DNA from: Methanomicrobiales archaeon HGW-Methanomicrobiales-1
GTDB lineage: Archaea > Halobacteriota > Methanomicrobia > Methanomicrobiales > Methanospirillaceae
Direction of reading: 5' to 3'
Assembly: GCA_002839675.1 (NCBI GenBank)
Contig: PGYM01000002.1
Coordinates: 228,111 to 292,110, forward strand
Length of the DNA stretch: 64,000 bases
Shown: in pieces, positions 14,940 to 22,040 of the stretch
Layout: each line of letters begins with the position of its first letter
Numbering within the stretch: the stretch's first letter is position 1
Notes under the pieces: model-generated
The model's database searches: none
The model's input: only the letters and a program-made list of their open reading frames with translations
Told to the model about the DNA's origin: nothing
Program-made: the position numbers and the translations under genes

Positions 14940-16511
14940 ATGAGAAGAAATTTCCTTATGATACTTATGATCCTGATACTGTGTGCGGTCTGTACCTTCC
15001 CGGTATCTGCGAGCATTGTTGTCGGTGATGTTACCCCCCCGGTAACTGAAGTGACAACAAAGGCAACACCAGAACCGACAGCTTTGCCGACATTTGTCAC
15101 CCAACCCACTACGGTACAAACTACGGTACCAACTAAGGTGCCCACCACGGAACCAACATCATTGCCGACATTTGTCACCCAGCCCACCACGGTACCCCCC
15201 ACGCTCTTACCAACGGTCACCATCACTATCCAACCCACCCAGGTTGGCGGGGGTAAAGGATGGATCGATACCTATTGCAATGTTGACGGCGCCACTGTAT
15301 ACTTCGATGGTGTCCCGCAGGGTAATATTGCCGGGGGCATTCTCTCGGTAGCGGTATCTCCGACAGGTTCTCCTGTCAGGACCATTTCCGTATCACTCTC
15401 CGGCTACACCACATGGTCCGGTCCGCTCTCCCGCATGCCGGAGAGTGGTGAGCATGTTGCAGTCTATTCAACCATCAACCCAATCCCAACCCAGACTACT
15501 GTGCCTCCGATCCAGAATGGCGCAATCTATGTCCAGTCAAGTCCTGCCGGTGCAGCGATCTACATGAACGGTAACTTCCAGGGATATGCACCGATAACGC
15601 TTCCCAACATGATTCCGTCCACCTATTCCATGAAAGCATCTCTCTCCGGTTATACATCGGATACCCAGCTGATTACCGTGTACTCCGGGCAGACGGCTAC
15701 CTATTACCCGAACCTCCAGCCATCTCCCCCTGCACCCCGGAACACCGGGACCGTGTCAGTAACCTCGAGTCCCAACCATGCATCGGTCTATGTCGATGGC
15801 ACGTACCAGGGCCAGACCCCGATAACGGTGACATTGTACCCGGGCAGTCATTCCTTCAGCCTGACCCTTCCCGGATACAGTGACTTCCCCGTAACTCTCT
15901 ACGTCAACGCCAACACCAACCAGAAACTGAACGCGGAGATGTCCCCGGCCATATATGGTACGGTTGCCATCACATCCATGCCCGGTGCAAGTGTTTTCAT
16001 GGACAGCAATGCCCAGGGACAAATCCCTCCGTCAGGCACACTCACCCTTTACAACATCCCCAGCGGAAACCACCTCTTCAAGGTCACTGCACCCGGGTAC
16101 AATGAATGGATGAACACCGTGTATATCCGGCCCAATGTCGTAAACCCGATCAGTGCGCCCCTGACGCCGATCAATCCGAACCCGACACCTGTACCTGCTA
16201 CCGGCGGGTTCAACATTGTTTCCACGCCAACCGGTGCTGAAGTCTACATCGACAACCTGTTCAAGGGATACACCCCGGCAACACTGGATGGCATTACCCC
16301 TGGAGACCACCAGGTCCTGCTCAAATACACGAACTATATTGATTACTCAACCGTAGCATCGGTAACCGCCGGTCAGACGACCCCGCTAGCCATCAGCATG
16401 CAGCCTGCTCCTTCACCCACACCGAAGTCCGCTCCCTCAATCCTGACGATGATCGCGGGTTGCACTGCAATTCTTGCGATTGGTATCGCAACAAGGAGGT
16501 TCCGTCCATGA
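14940..16511 (+). CDS. secreted PEGA-domain surface protein
   Basis: A 523-residue cell-surface protein. Signal peptide at 1-25, a Thr/Pro/Val-rich linker (about 40-100, likely glycosylated) built from duplicated TxLPTFVTQPTTV segments, then about five tandem PEGA-like beta-sandwich units. Each unit carries a GAxVYxDGxxQG-type turn and a PGxHxxxxxxPGY-type turn, for example around residues 115, 200, 278, 345 and 425. A C-terminal hydrophobic helix with basic tail (IATRRFRP) anchors it. Its stop overlaps the next ATG (ATGA), implying coupled translation with the membrane sensor downstream. Confidence 0.88.
   Translation: MRRNFLMILMILILCAVCTFPVSASIVVGDVTPPVTEVTTKATPEPTALPTFVTQPTTVQTTVPTKVPTTEPTSLPTFVTQPTTVPPTLLPTVTITIQPTQVGGGKGWIDTYCNVDGATVYFDGVPQGNIAGGILSVAVSPTGSPVRTISVSLSGYTTWSGPLSRMPESGEHVAVYSTINPIPTQTTVPPIQNGAIYVQSSPAGAAIYMNGNFQGYAPITLPNMIPSTYSMKASLSGYTSDTQLITVYSGQTATYYPNLQPSPPAPRNTGTVSVTSSPNHASVYVDGTYQGQTPITVTLYPGSHSFSLTLPGYSDFPVTLYVNANTNQKLNAEMSPAIYGTVAITSMPGASVFMDSNAQGQIPPSGTLTLYNIPSGNHLFKVTAPGYNEWMNTVYIRPNVVNPISAPLTPINPNPTPVPATGGFNIVSTPTGAEVYIDNLFKGYTPATLDGITPGDHQVLLKYTNYIDYSTVASVTAGQTTPLAISMQPAPSPTPKSAPSILTMIAGCTAILAIGIATRRFRP
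15084..15195 (+). repeat. 78-bp-spaced direct repeat inside the PEGA gene
   Basis: TTGCCGACATTTGTCACCCA occurs at 15084 and again at 15162, each followed by a near-identical CCCACYACGGTAC. The 78-base spacing equals 26 codons, so the duplication lengthens the Thr/Pro linker without breaking the frame. Such repeats can expand or contract by slippage or recombination. Confidence 0.85.
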
Positions 16512-17179
16512 ACAGCTCATTCGTGCAATCAAACAAGATCCTTATCGGTTCGATCCTTGTCATCCTTATCATAGGATCGTTCACCCTGCTCGCGTACAAT
16601 AACCAGAACACTGCCCTGCAGAACTCAGTCAAGCAGGGCATGGAATCCACGGTAAGCGTGATGGCAACCCAGATATCGCCCAAGGATCTTGCTGGAATCA
16701 AGCCCGGTGATGAGGGGTCGGAACAGTATAAGGCCATAGTGCAGAAACTGCGCACAATGCGCAGTATGGATGACGCGCTGCTCAATGCCTATATCCTCAA
16801 AGTCAATCCCGACCAGACCGTAACATTCCTGGTAGACGATCTCTATCTGCAGGATCCCCAGGGCTCGGCAAAGATAGGTGAAGTGTCGACAGCTCCGAAA
16901 ATGGATATCCTGCTCGCCCTCTCCGGCCCGACAACATCGAAACAGCCCTACACTACCAAGTACGGGTCGTTCATGACCGCCTATGCTCCCATCGATGACA
17001 ATATTCTGGATTCGACCGGAAACACCTATGCGGTGCTTGCAATCGATGTGCCCGCAACGGATTATAATGATTATACTTCCCGCGGGGGATGGATCCTTCT
17101 GACAGGGCTCGTCTCAATGATCCTTGCTATTGGCGCGATCTTCTTGTTCGGGCGCAGTACCACGAAGAAGGACGAGTGA
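16508..17179 (+). CDS. membrane protein with extracellular Cache-like sensor domain
   Basis: A 223-residue protein with a transmembrane helix at about 10-30, an extracytoplasmic domain of about 155 residues, a second helix at about 196-217 and a short basic cytoplasmic tail. The layout, and segments such as LKVNPDQTVTFLVDD and YGSFMTAYAPI, resemble the single-Cache sensor part of histidine kinases and chemoreceptors, but no HAMP, kinase or signalling domain follows. A strong SD (AGGAGGT, 16494-16500) and a 4-base ATGA overlap couple it to the PEGA gene. It may sense or brace that surface protein; function unknown. Confidence 0.7.
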   Translation: MNSSFVQSNKILIGSILVILIIGSFTLLAYNNQNTALQNSVKQGMESTVSVMATQISPKDLAGIKPGDEGSEQYKAIVQKLRTMRSMDDALLNAYILKVNPDQTVTFLVDDLYLQDPQGSAKIGEVSTAPKMDILLALSGPTTSKQPYTTKYGSFMTAYAPIDDNILDSTGNTYAVLAIDVPATDYNDYTSRGGWILLTGLVSMILAIGAIFLFGRSTTKKDE

Positions 17180-17247
17180 AGACTTGCAATAAAACGGGGC
17201 TGTTGTCCCGCAACTTCTTTTTTCTTATCATTCCAACTATTCTTACT

Positions 17248-17904
17248 ATGTCATCACCCGTGCGCACCGCACTTCTGGCATGTGTTCTCATAGCGGCATT
17301 TCTTCTCGCTGCGGGATGCACCCAGCAACCGGTATCACCAGTCAGTACCGAAACGACAACCAGGACCATTGCGGCAACTCCCGTAATAACAACGGTTACC
17401 GCCACGCCCGCCGTGACCGTACCTGCCACGCTCTCCACAGAGCCATGGAAACGGGTCCGGCTTTCGACAGACATGGGAGATATCGTTATCGCGCTCGACC
17501 CGACCATGCCCATCACCACGGGCAACTTCGAGACGCTCGTGAACAAAGGATACTACAACAATGTGATCTTCCACCGGGTCATGCCCGGTTTCATGATCCA
17601 GGGCGGCGACCCGACCGGTACCGGCCGCGGTGGCCCGGGTTATCTGATTGCTGATGAGTTCGGGACAAACAACCAGAACAACCGTGGGACCATTGCAATG
17701 GCAAACGCCGGCCCCAACACCGGCGGATCACAGTTCTTCATCAATCTGGTAAACAACAATTACCTTGATACCATACACCCGGTCTTTGGGAAAGTTGTGG
17801 AAGGTATGGACGTTGTCGACACGATCGCCAAAGTGCCGACATCCGGCGGACCGTTATACCACCCGCTCCAGAACGTGACGATCGTAAAAGCGGTCATGAT
17901 CTGA
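17248..17904 (+). CDS. secreted lipoprotein cyclophilin (peptidyl-prolyl isomerase)
   Basis: Cyclophilin-type peptidyl-prolyl cis-trans isomerase exported as a lipoprotein. Signal segment with lipobox LAAGC (Cys at about residue 27), a Thr-rich linker to about 65, then the cyclophilin domain with FHRVMPGFMIQGGDPTGTG (catalytic Arg, Phe, Gln), NTGGSQFFINLVNN and HPVFGKVVEGMDVV. It would assist folding of exported surface proteins. The ATG at 17248 gives the signal peptide directly. Next gene is a cytoplasmic paralogue; the two share a 47-base identical block. Confidence 0.93.
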   Translation: MSSPVRTALLACVLIAAFLLAAGCTQQPVSPVSTETTTRTIAATPVITTVTATPAVTVPATLSTEPWKRVRLSTDMGDIVIALDPTMPITTGNFETLVNKGYYNNVIFHRVMPGFMIQGGDPTGTGRGGPGYLIADEFGTNNQNNRGTIAMANAGPNTGGSQFFINLVNNNYLDTIHPVFGKVVEGMDVVDTIAKVPTSGGPLYHPLQNVTIVKAVMI

Positions 17905-17983
17905 TCTCTTTTTTTCCTGCCCGCACAGTGCGGACATTCGCAACACAGAAGAATCCCCGGATCCAATACTATTGCAGCATACC

Positions 17984-18451
17984 ATGACAGCACCAGCAGG
18001 AAATTCCGTGCGGCTCGAGACGAACATGGGTAACATAACCATTGCGCTCGATCCCGCTATGCCCGTTACTGCGGGCAATTTTGAAACGCTTGTGAAAAAA
18101 GGCTTCTATGATGGCATTATCTTCCACCGGGTTATCGACGGGTTCATGCTGCAGGCCGGTTGCCCGCAGGGGACCGGTATGGGCGGACCCGGTTACGCGA
18201 TCAAGGATGAGTTCGGGCCAGCCAACCGGAACAACCGCGGCACCATCTCCATGGCAAACGCCGGCCCCAACACCGGCGGATCACAGTTCTTCATCAACCT
18301 TGTCAACAACAACTTCCTTGACGACAAACACCCGGTCTTTGGGAAAGTGGTTGAGGGGATGGATGTTGTCGATAAGATCGGCAAGACCAAGACCCTTCGT
18401 GGCGATCGCCCGGCCAAGGATGTAACGATCGTCCGCGCCGTGATGGTCTGA
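17984..18451 (+). CDS. cytoplasmic cyclophilin (peptidyl-prolyl isomerase)
   Basis: A minimal 155-residue cyclophilin without signal peptide. The active-site segments FHRVIDGFMLQAGCPQGTG, NAGPNTGGSQFFINLVNN and HPVFGKVVEGMDVVDKIG match those of the lipoprotein paralogue 80 bases upstream. The ATG at 17984 is used; an in-frame TTG at 17972 has no better SD. The pair looks like a tandem duplication with one copy retargeted to the cell surface. It ends in T-rich DNA before the 25-bp repeat region. Confidence 0.93.
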   Translation: MTAPAGNSVRLETNMGNITIALDPAMPVTAGNFETLVKKGFYDGIIFHRVIDGFMLQAGCPQGTGMGGPGYAIKDEFGPANRNNRGTISMANAGPNTGGSQFFINLVNNNFLDDKHPVFGKVVEGMDVVDKIGKTKTLRGDRPAKDVTIVRAVMV

Positions 18452-18481
18452 ACTTTATCTTTTTTTGCCGTTACCGGGCGA

Positions 18482-19175
18482 AGGTTTGTTTCAAAATTTT
18501 GTACCGGTTCCAGATTTCGAAATCCTCCATTTTGGTCCGCTGACATTTGACCGGGTTCTTACTCAGCCGGATGGTGCAAACTCGTACAAAACCGATCTAT
18601 TGCTTAAGATTCTGGTGCGTAAACGATTCATGCAGCACCACGAGCTCCGTGATCTGGTGCACCTGCATTTTTTCTGATGAGCCGGCTTTTTCTGGTTTTT
18701 CCGGCCGGCAGATCTCTTTTTTGAATCAAGGTTCGATTAAAAAATAAAAATCAAAGTCTGGATGAATTTTTTTGATCAAAGTCCGGTTGATCCGGAAATG
18801 ATTTTCAATCGCGATCGCGTACCCGATTGAAAATTTTTGAGCGGAGTCTGGTTGATCCGGCTGAGTGGCCGGATGTACGGTTTGGGTGAGATGCCGGAGC
18901 GGGTTCACTTCTGATGTGCTGACCGGTTTTTCTCCATTTCGGTTGAAAGAATCAGAAACGGATCGCGTTTTTACATTTTCAAGCAGAGTCTGGTTGAGCT
19001 GCGAACGGATTCCAGGCAGGGGCTAGGGGGTTGATTGAAAATTTTTGAGCAGGGTCTGATTTATTTTTTTTAGGCAAGGTGTGGTTGAAAAATAAAATTC
19101 AAGGTCCGGTTAAAATTTTTAAATCAAGGTTTGATTTTTTTCAAGCAGGGTCTGCCATAAAAAACTCATACCAGG
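18482..19175. repeat. degenerate 25-bp tandem repeat array between convergent genes
   Basis: An AT-rich non-coding stretch with at least ten copies of a degenerate unit, GTCYGGTTGA followed by an A/T-rich tract ending TTTGANCARG or TCAAG. The GTCYGG anchor starts at 18731, 18756, 18781, 18846, 18988, 19054, 19079, 19104, 19129 and 19150. Steps are exactly 25 bases in two runs (18731-18781 and 19054-19129). GATTGAAAATTTTTGAGC occurs twice (18825, 19033). Weaker copies may begin near 18484. A 25-base period is not a multiple of three, which argues against coding. The block separates the convergent cyclophilin and GTPase genes. Confidence 0.7.
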
Positions 19176-19227
19176 GTGGTGCAGATGTTGGTGGCGATGT
19201 GGTGCAGTGCAGGAGAAAAGAGAGGGA

Positions 19228-19743
19228 TCAACTACGGTTAGGCCCATTCGGACGCGGTGCAAGTGTCCCGGCAAATTGCAGCAGGGCATCCATGGACTGT
19301 TGCTTGTCCTTTGCAGAAACCTTCCGTACTTCTGATGCCCCGAACTGACCGGTGAATGCATCCGGGTCTGCCCCTTCGCTGTCGCACTTGTTCAGGAATA
19401 CCACAAAGGGAACCTTTGCACTCTGCAGGGTAACTGAAAGATGGCGGGTGAACTCATCCAGCAGGCTTGTCACATCCACGAGCAGGATTGCCCCGTCCAT
19501 GCCTTTTGCAATAATCTCGCGGGCAAACTCAAACCGCTCCTGCCCGGGGGTCCCGTAGATATGGATATTGCACCCGTTATTCCGGAGACGGCCGAAGTCA
19601 AGCGCAACGGTTGTGGTACCTCCCGCACAGTTCGCCTCGACATGTTTCGATTCAGGATCCAGTGTTTTGATCAGGGTGGTTTTCCCTGCCCCGAATGCAC
19701 CAAAGATGACAATTTTCAGTTTGCTTTCATCAGCCATTGTCAT
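19228..19743 (-). CDS. Arf/MglA-like small GTPase (COG2229-type)
   Basis: A 171-residue Ras-superfamily GTPase. P-loop GAFGAGKTT near residue 15, switch region TTVALDFGR, the G3-type YGTPGQERF (Asp-x-x-Gly-Gln variant with Thr-Pro), and NKCD for guanine specificity. This pattern matches the prokaryotic COG2229 group, which often works with roadblock/LC7 proteins, but none is adjacent. It follows fusA on the same strand after 101 bases holding its own TATA-like tract (TTTTTTATATTTTTTC), in the place where tuf is found in many archaea. An ATG six bases further in (19737) is possible. Confidence 0.88.
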   Translation of the reverse strand: MTMADESKLKIVIFGAFGAGKTTLIKTLDPESKHVEANCAGGTTTVALDFGRLRNNGCNIHIYGTPGQERFEFAREIIAKGMDGAILLVDVTSLLDEFTRHLSVTLQSAKVPFVVFLNKCDSEGADPDAFTGQFGASEVRKVSAKDKQQSMDALLQFAGTLAPRPNGPNRS

Positions 19744-19844
19744 ACAGATTGGGTGGAAAACATGTTTACCATTTCGGTAGAAACAATGAGAAATTTACGC
19801 CTGAAAAAATATAAAAAAATGGGACTGGGGATGGGGTAAAAAGA

Positions 19845-22040
19845 TTATGCCGACAGGTAATCTGCCGGGGTTGGGAGCTGTTCTTTCAAGCCCTTGCGCT
19901 TGCGGATTGCAACCACAACTTCCTTGAGCATGCTGTTGGGCACGAGTTCGAATCCTGCAAACTCCGTATTCCACATAGCACGGCCTTCTGTTGCTGAACG
20001 GATATCGCCTGCAAACCCGAAGAGCTCGGCAACCGGTGCCTTACCTACAACGGTGATTGTGTCACCCTCGCTCTGCATGTCAAAGACCTGACCGCGCCGT
20101 CCCTGGATCTGGGAGGTTGCTGCCCCCATCTGGTCCATCGGGACGGTAATCTGGATCCTCTGGACTGGCTCAAGAAGTGAGTCACCAGCGATCAGCATAC
20201 CTGCTTTGATGGCACTGCGCACGGCCGGGATAACCTGTGCCGGGCCACGGTGAATTGCATCCTCGTGGAGCTTCACATCGACGAGCGTCATCTTGAGATT
20301 CTGGACCGGCTCATCTGCAAGCGGACCACCGGCGAGTGCCTCGTGGATACCTTCGATGATCAGTTCCATAGTCTCATTGAGGTACTGGACACCCTTGGTC
20401 CGGTCAATGAGCATGTTGGTGGCTTTGATATCCTTGATGCTCTTGGCATCATCCTTTTCCATGCCCGCATTCATGAGGATGTCACGGCGCTCAAGCATCG
20501 GCTGGTTCATCGAGACCTCGCCTTTCTTGATCAGGTTAACAATCTCATCAGGCAGAATTTCGAGGTCGAAATAGAACCGGTTATGACGGTTCGGGGACTT
20601 GCCTTCCACAGACTCAATCTTCTGGGTTACGGTTTCACGGTAAACCACGATTGGCTCGGAGGTGATGATCTCTACACCCTTGTCGCGCTTGATACGTCCG
20701 GTAATAATCTCAAGGTGCAGTTCGCCCATACCTGAGATCAGGTGCTCACCGGTCTCTTCGTTGATGGTGATGACCAGCGTCGGGTCTTCCTTTGCAACCT
20801 GCCGGAGCACTTCAACGAGCTTGGGCAGATCCTTCATGTTCTTTGCCTCGACGGCAACGGTCATGACCGGTTCAGAGTAGTGCTTGAGTGACTCGAAGGG
20901 GGTGATTTCCAGGAGCGAGGTAACGGTCGAGCCGACCATCGCATCTCTCAGGCCGGTAACTGCGGCGATATTTCCGCCGACAATCTCATCGACCTCAACG
21001 CGCTTCGGGCCCATGAAGATACCGACCTGCTGGAGCCGGTTCTCTTTCATCGCTGAACCCATGACATAGAGGCTGTCGCCTCGCTTGATGCGTCCCGAGA
21101 AGAGACGTCCGGTGGCGACTTCCCCGGCATGGGGATCGAATGAAATGTCGGTAACCATCAGGGAAACCGGACCGTTCGGGTCGCAGGTGATCATGGCCTT
21201 GCCTTCCTTTGACTCCTTGTCGCCATGCCAGATAACCGGGATACGACGCTTCTGTGCGTCGATCGGATTGGGGAGATGGTTTACTACCATATCGAGAAGA
21301 ACATCGGAGAGCGGGCTGTTCTTTGCCAGGTACTTCATGTCGCCTGCACGGCACTTGTCGAACACATCTTTGAATGAGACGCCACTCTTCTTCATGAACG
21401 GAATGGAGACTGCCCAGTTGTAGAGTGCTGACCCGAAGGCAACAGTACCCAGTCCTGCATCAAGTTTCCAGCCACTGTTATAGGCTTCCTCGTTCATACC
21501 CTTGATCAGCTTGTTGACCTTGTCGATCACTTTACCGAGCCGGATCTGCATCTCCATTTCGTCGACTTTAATCTCGTTAACGAGACGGTCAACTTTGTTG
21601 ATGAAGAGAACGGGACGGACTCCCTCCTTGAGGGCCTGCCGGAGCACGGTCTCGGTCTGGGGCATGGTGCCCTCGACTGCGTCCACGAGGACAACCGCTC
21701 CATCGACCGCACGCATCGCACGGGTGACGTCGCCACCGAAGTCAACGTGACCGGGCGTATCGATCATGTTGATCAGGTAATCCTGACCTTCGTACTCATG
21801 CACCATTGAGACGTTGGATGCGTCAATAGTGATACCACGGGCCTGCTCTTCTGGATCTGAGTCCATGAAGAGCTGCTTTCCTGCAAGCTCCTCAGAGATG
21901 ATGCCTGCACCTGAAAGCAGGTTGTCAGAAAGAGTCGTCTTGCCGTGGTCAATGTGTGCCACAATACCGATGTTCCGAATGTGCTTCGGTTCCTTCATGA
22001 GCTCAGTTACGCGCTCGACTGATTTTTTGCCGCGGACCAT
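19845..22040 (-). CDS. fusA: translation elongation factor aEF-2
   Basis: Archaeal elongation factor 2, the GTPase that drives ribosomal translocation; 731 residues, standard length. GTP-binding motifs [26 protein letters not shown] and NKVD are in the N-terminal domain. Domain IV near the C-terminus contains the [15 protein letters not shown] region with the histidine modified to diphthamide in archaea. It lies 24 bases after rps7 in the str operon. Start is the ATG at 22040, preceded by GAGGTAATTTTC. Confidence 0.98.

Follow-up and report, generated by a model that had tools for sequence, protein, structure and literature searches.

Genes and repeat array in the window

The window analyzed here is a 64-kb stretch (G000:C2:228111-292110) of the Methanomicrobiales archaeon HGW-Methanomicrobiales-1 genome, which comprises 2.47 Mb in five contigs. 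Two convergent genes enclose the array under study. The left neighbor encodes a cyclophilin-type peptidyl-prolyl isomerase (17972..18451, + strand; PF00160, 1.3e-48), and the right neighbor encodes a small GTPase (19228..19743, − strand). Another cyclophilin-type isomerase gene with an N-terminal extension (17089-17904) is adjacent to the first, and the pair looks like a tandem duplication. The gene at 14940-16511 encodes a protein of 523 aa that has four PEGA domains and, at its C terminus, a hydrophobic stretch. A PEGA protein also flanks the array at 278 kb in G081. The G006 orthologue of the small GTPase (L133, G006:C4:14399-14779) also adjoins an array. It contains an in-frame TGA and matches residues 1-127 only; it is possibly a pseudogene or an assembly error.

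A unit profile was built from copies at several loci and used to scan the window. Ten 25-bp units were found at 18718-19161, starting at 18718, 18743, 18768, 18833, 18975, 19041, 19066, 19091, 19116, and 19137. The start-to-start steps were 25, 25, 65, 142, 66, 25, 25, 25, and 21 bp. The rest of the window had a single further site of at least 13 bits. Nine units between 18701 and 19160 scored at least 17 bits; in 500 dinucleotide shuffles, such units averaged 0.006 and never exceeded 1. Because the profile was trained partly on the window units, the self-match of the array at lag 25 is a cleaner test, being independent of any profile. It was 0.38, compared with 0.264 ± 0.021 (maximum 0.32) for the shuffles. 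These results confirmed the tandem array with exact 25-bp steps in two runs that the first-pass annotation had described. The extent given there, 18482-19175, was too wide, as the profile scan found no unit in 18482-18717, which is ordinary intergenic DNA. Even at a score of 30, Tandem Repeats Finder did not report the array, whose copies diverge too strongly for it.

The whole composite array (18718..19161, + strand) has a layout that we named type B. The profile scan defined it, and the same layout was matched at eight further aligned loci in three species. Its order is three units, a 40-bp spacer, one unit, a 117-bp spacer, one unit, a 41-bp spacer, and five units. The first run (18718..18792, +) contains three dyad units of 27.7, 23.6, and 28.8 bits. 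In the following 40-bp spacer lies a broken palindrome, TTTTCAATCGCGATC...GATTGAAAA (18802..18833), which is nearly perfect at other loci (TTTTCAATCGCGATCATGATCGCGATTGAAAA). Next come a lone unit of 25.9 bits (18833..18857, +) and the 117-bp spacer (18858..18974, +), which is conserved in the alignment of nine loci. The motif scan of the loci found TTCACTTCTGA in this spacer (18904..18914, +), a variant of the oriented spacer motif TTYACGWCGGA. Another lone unit of 27.6 bits (18975..18999, +) is followed by the 41-bp spacer (19000..19040, +), which ends in GATTGAAA and was defined from the same alignment. The second run (19041..19161, +) contains five units of 27.8, 29.2, 25.9, 27.8, and 22.5 bits, with a last step of 21 bp. 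The stretches between the runs had been taken for decayed copies. As the 40-, 117-, and 41-bp spacers align across loci, they are conserved parts of the element, common to other loci.

Unit and composite element structure

The unit is a 25-bp dyad, WTTTTMAATCAARGTCTGRTTGAAA, with its center at index 13. Among 541 units, dyad symmetry was 0.90 at this index versus 0.34-0.60 at all other centers. The commonest centers were AAAGTCT and AAGGTTT. Although the units diverge widely in sequence, their 25-bp phase is kept: 340 steps were exactly 25 bp, 72 were 65 bp, and only six were 24 or 26 bp.

Two composite layouts were observed. Type A elements (G018, G081, and G082) have steps of 65-25-25-91-25-25-25-65, with one to three elements per locus; tandem type A elements give a 281-bp higher-order period. 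In two complete genomes, almost every locus had the layout 65-25-25-91(or 81)-25-25-25-65, which recurred in a third genome. Type B elements, seen at the window locus and elsewhere in G000, G006, and G004, have runs of 25-bp steps flanking a 65-142-65/66 core. Within the 65-bp steps, the 40-bp spacer carries a palindrome, either TTTTCAATCGCGATC(N)TGATCGCGATTGAAAA or a broken version of it. The exact form of the palindrome was found only in Methanoregula-type genomes. The long step corresponds to a 66- or 117-bp spacer, often with TTYACGWCGGA in the array orientation. Beyond the arrays, the scanned loci had one same-strand match to this motif and no opposite-strand match. The 66-bp spacer of type A elements (e.g., L101) begins with a second conserved block, AAAAGTTAACYACNTGTGCAT.

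The dyad arms showed no covariation, which makes RNA hairpins unlikely and fits protein half-sites. The first-pass annotation had listed a protein-binding site and a small-RNA locus among its options. The dyad-symmetric unit, the nearly indel-free phase, and the arms without covariation all supported the former. It is highly improbable that the arrays are structured- or small-RNA loci. Their palindromes are able to fold, and one other copy had a z of -2.7, but the window copy folded only weakly and no better than shuffles (z -0.6 and -1.6). No Rfam match above the gathering threshold was found in 17000-21000, the dyads showed no compensatory changes, and the orientation of the arrays relative to genes was mixed.

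Distribution among genomes

The anchor sequence of the array recurs in clusters across the host genome. The 461-bp window block matched other loci at 73-86% identity, and several of these matches were at contig ends. Host contigs tend to end in or beside array copies (the starts of C2, C3, C4, and C5 and the end of C4), indicating that the arrays probably caused assembly breaks.

When an exact stretch of the element was used to scan the whole collection, all 19 matches were in Methanoregula or Methanomicrobiales genomes. The array-bearing relatives found by search belong to the host's own genus. A 75-position model of three units was then applied to 232 genomes of the order. Of the 39 genomes in the genus, 27 had arrays, including one with just a single weak match. 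Outside the genus, the order yielded a single weak match, which fell within the family. On an orc1 tree, every one of the 24 species in a Methanoregula clade carried arrays. G005 and G070, outside this clade, held a few, and 11 congeners had none. Together with the one further congener that has a trace, these eleven indicated that the element is not universally needed. The three complete genomes had 8-12 array loci each. The window block is one of about a dozen array copies per chromosome and belongs to a putative cis-acting DNA family.

The array was not matched in viral contigs by exact searches, nor by blastn in phages and plasmids, including 72,556 plasmid records. A virus or plasmid origin found no support in these searches. 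The same collections were used to look for a relationship to MITEs or insertion sequences and gave no match. No described Methanoregula repeat of this kind was found in the literature searched, which covers a minority of subscription papers.

Conservation and probable exchange between loci

Many array loci are common to different species at orthologous positions. The G018 locus at 803 kb has counterparts in G081, G000, and G006, and that at 1145 kb has counterparts in G081, G082, and G000. When orthologous loci of G018 and G081 were compared, the arrays aligned strongly, whereas the remaining intergenic DNA mostly failed to align. The mean identity of orthologous elements between these two genomes was 0.78, compared with 0.73 for non-orthologous elements and 0.73-0.75 for within-genome paralogues. 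This pattern indicated vertical inheritance of an old family that was not homogenised as a whole.

The suggestion that the block is a decaying satellite did not hold. Such a satellite would have lost its phase and lacked orthologous conservation; neither was seen, and the geometry is kept across about 25 species as well as at orthologous loci. Whether the array might be missing from close relatives, or its phase not conserved there, was examined, and the array survived this check. A satellite under concerted evolution was also rejected, since within-genome paralogues are no closer than non-orthologous copies of other species, although type B cassettes did move.

Type B cassettes at the various loci share 71-87% identity with the window copy. 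The window locus is type B, and the G006 array beside the same GTPase gene has another layout. A type B cassette probably replaced an older element at the window locus via inter-locus exchange. A second kind of exchange was observed between the sister species G018 and G082. Around a pair of arrays that lie about 66 kb apart in opposite orientation, the inner flanking genes are swapped (L082/L083 at 967/1033 kb in G018 versus L108/L109 at 918/985 kb in G082), as would be expected for an inversion between the two arrays.

These exchanges bear on the view that the array is an inert, non-coding mobile or selfish repeat, which spread in the clade ancestor and owes its regularity to recombination between copies. 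The family is multi-copy and clade-limited, its cassettes move between loci, as the differing layouts at the window locus and its G006 orthologue show, and the G018/G082 inversion ends at two arrays. We nevertheless regard this view as rather unlikely. As paralogues are no closer to each other than non-orthologues of different genomes, homogenisation does not explain the common geometry. Indels are rare and all 24 clade species have kept the arrays, both signs of selection. No relative was found in the phage, plasmid, and viral collections.

Intergenic setting and position relative to the origin

All examined loci were intergenic. By simple ORF calling, 48 settings could be classified, and 26 were tandem, 13 convergent, and 9 divergent. 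The location between converging genes, pointed out from the window alone, is correct for this locus and fails as a general rule. The proposed transcription barrier between convergent genes was dismissed, because arrays were found in every gene orientation. The flanking genes had no common function; they encode a tRNA synthetase, transporters, a V-ATPase subunit, asparagine synthase, an HsdR-like protein, and cyclophilin, among others.

A pleiotropic regulator of transcription or a silencer might bind the arrays, or they might insulate neighboring transcription units from each other. Their intergenic location and dyad symmetry are operator-like. Arrays also lie between convergent genes and not just at promoters, however, and the genes beside them are unrelated. 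Eight to twenty sites with a conserved core and clustering at the origin would be unusual for operators. We consider a regulator or insulator role unlikely, with a small chance of being correct.

The main orc1 gene, orc1-1, was used as the reference for the origin. An ORB (TTCCAATGGAAAC...GGGG) adjoins orc1-1 in G018 and G081, outside the arrays, and supports orc1-1 as the origin. The genomes tested for clustering are related and have common loci, so the following P values are optimistic and overstate independence: 6 of the 10 strong loci of G018 were within 210 kb of orc1-1 (p 0.0007), as were 5 of the 8 loci of G082 (p 0.0025), whereas clustering was weak in G081 (4 of 12 loci, p 0.09; mean-distance p 0.045), and over nine genomes 24 loci were within 130 kb of orc1-1 versus 10.5 expected (Poisson P 2e-4), an expectation that roughly assumes 12 uniformly placed loci per genome. 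In G064, the arrays were few and weak, the best matches were far from orc1-1, and no clustering was observed. Orientation was also biased: 18 of the 24 loci within 130 kb pointed towards orc1-1, and polarity was reversed for most distal arrays. Arrays were also located near a second orc1/cdc6 gene, in G018 (~1 kb; the weak L078, at about 435 kb), G000 (a weak match, ~6.5 kb, at the start of C3), and G081 (~25 kb).

Origin clustering and the arrays near the second orc1 raise the question of replication elements, such as accessory origins, fork-pause sites, or starts of recombination-dependent replication. No canonical ORB was present inside the arrays, the one at orc1-1 has no array nearby, and the loci are at many distances from the origin. 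A replication role is therefore improbable.

Comparison with known systems

The arrays were compared with several known types of site. Like ORBs, they are dyad repeats tied to the origin region. ORB or origin identity was rejected, as the unit consensus contains no ORB and no array lies at the ORB beside orc1-1. Like plasmid iterons and partition-site arrays, which bind one protein, they are direct repeats of fixed pitch; unlike these, they occupy about a dozen chromosomal loci and had no match among the plasmid records. They also resemble CRISPR in being regular direct repeats in an archaeon. A CRISPR was rejected because the units are contiguous, with no unique spacers between them, and have diverged from one another.

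Canonical parS is a 16-bp palindrome. As in bacterial ParABS, several palindromic sites are concentrated around the origin here, weakly in G081 and not visibly in G064. The unit differs from parS in sequence and length, parS sites do not form phased tandem arrays, and no ParB partner came up in a gene search that covered one ATPase family. The unit consensus does not match canonical parS, so the arrays are not assigned to it.

SegB sites of the SegAB system, found in Sulfolobales and other archaea, are 13 bp long, with the consensus TCTAGA-S-TCTAGA and a near-invariant core AGA-S-TCT (PMC12284271). They are palindromes scattered on the chromosome, single or few per place, and 83.7% of them are inside genes (PMC12284271). 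The arrays here are likewise palindromes dispersed over an archaeal chromosome, and some unit centers read AGAGTCT. The differences are that the arrays consist of phased 25-bp units and are all intergenic. We do not assign the arrays to the SegB sites, because the core likeness is loose (exact AGASTCT in 4% of the 541 units) and no segAB pair was found with the one ATPase family searched.

With this ATPase family, strong ParA-type matches were obtained in G011, G018, G081, and G082, with no evident small partner gene downstream. These ParA/Soj-like genes (L192, L193, L194, and L195) are solitary. G011 has no arrays, and no ParA-type ATPase of that strength was found in array-bearing G000, nor in G016. 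These results indicated that the ATPase does not track the arrays. On the best reading, the arrays would work like parS or SegB sites yet belong to neither, as a multi-site, dimer-binding DNA element.

Proposed role of the arrays

In general terms, the array is probably a functional DNA-protein array. Each 25-bp unit is predicted to be the binding site of a dimeric DNA-binding protein, and adjacent dimers would be spaced at a constant 25-bp pitch. Through the 40-bp palindromic spacers and the 66- or 117-bp spacer with its oriented motif, the element would acquire polarity and a defined core. A large, oriented nucleoprotein complex may then assemble on each element. Such complexes, at conserved intergenic places around the origin and mostly facing it when near, would organise or segregate the chromosome.

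The conserved intergenic placement, the concentration near the origin, and the orientation towards it make chromosome organisation or segregation the most likely job of the arrays. That this is their main purpose, with a centromere-like or SMC-anchoring role, has in our estimation not quite an even chance. More tentatively, the arrays may constitute a clade-specific, previously undescribed euryarchaeal centromere-like system, with a dozen oriented, phased dyad arrays around the origin, a putative assembly protein, and inversions between arrays.

To our knowledge, euryarchaeal methanogens have no established cis element that directs chromosome segregation or the loading of SMC. The nature of archaeal centromeres and their clustering are listed as open questions (PMC5120986). 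The array family offers a defined DNA bait for finding its binder, with the phase, the spacer motif, and the array-less sister species as built-in controls. Even if the element is not a centromere, a nearly indel-free 25-bp phase kept in 24 species calls for an undescribed DNA-binding system.
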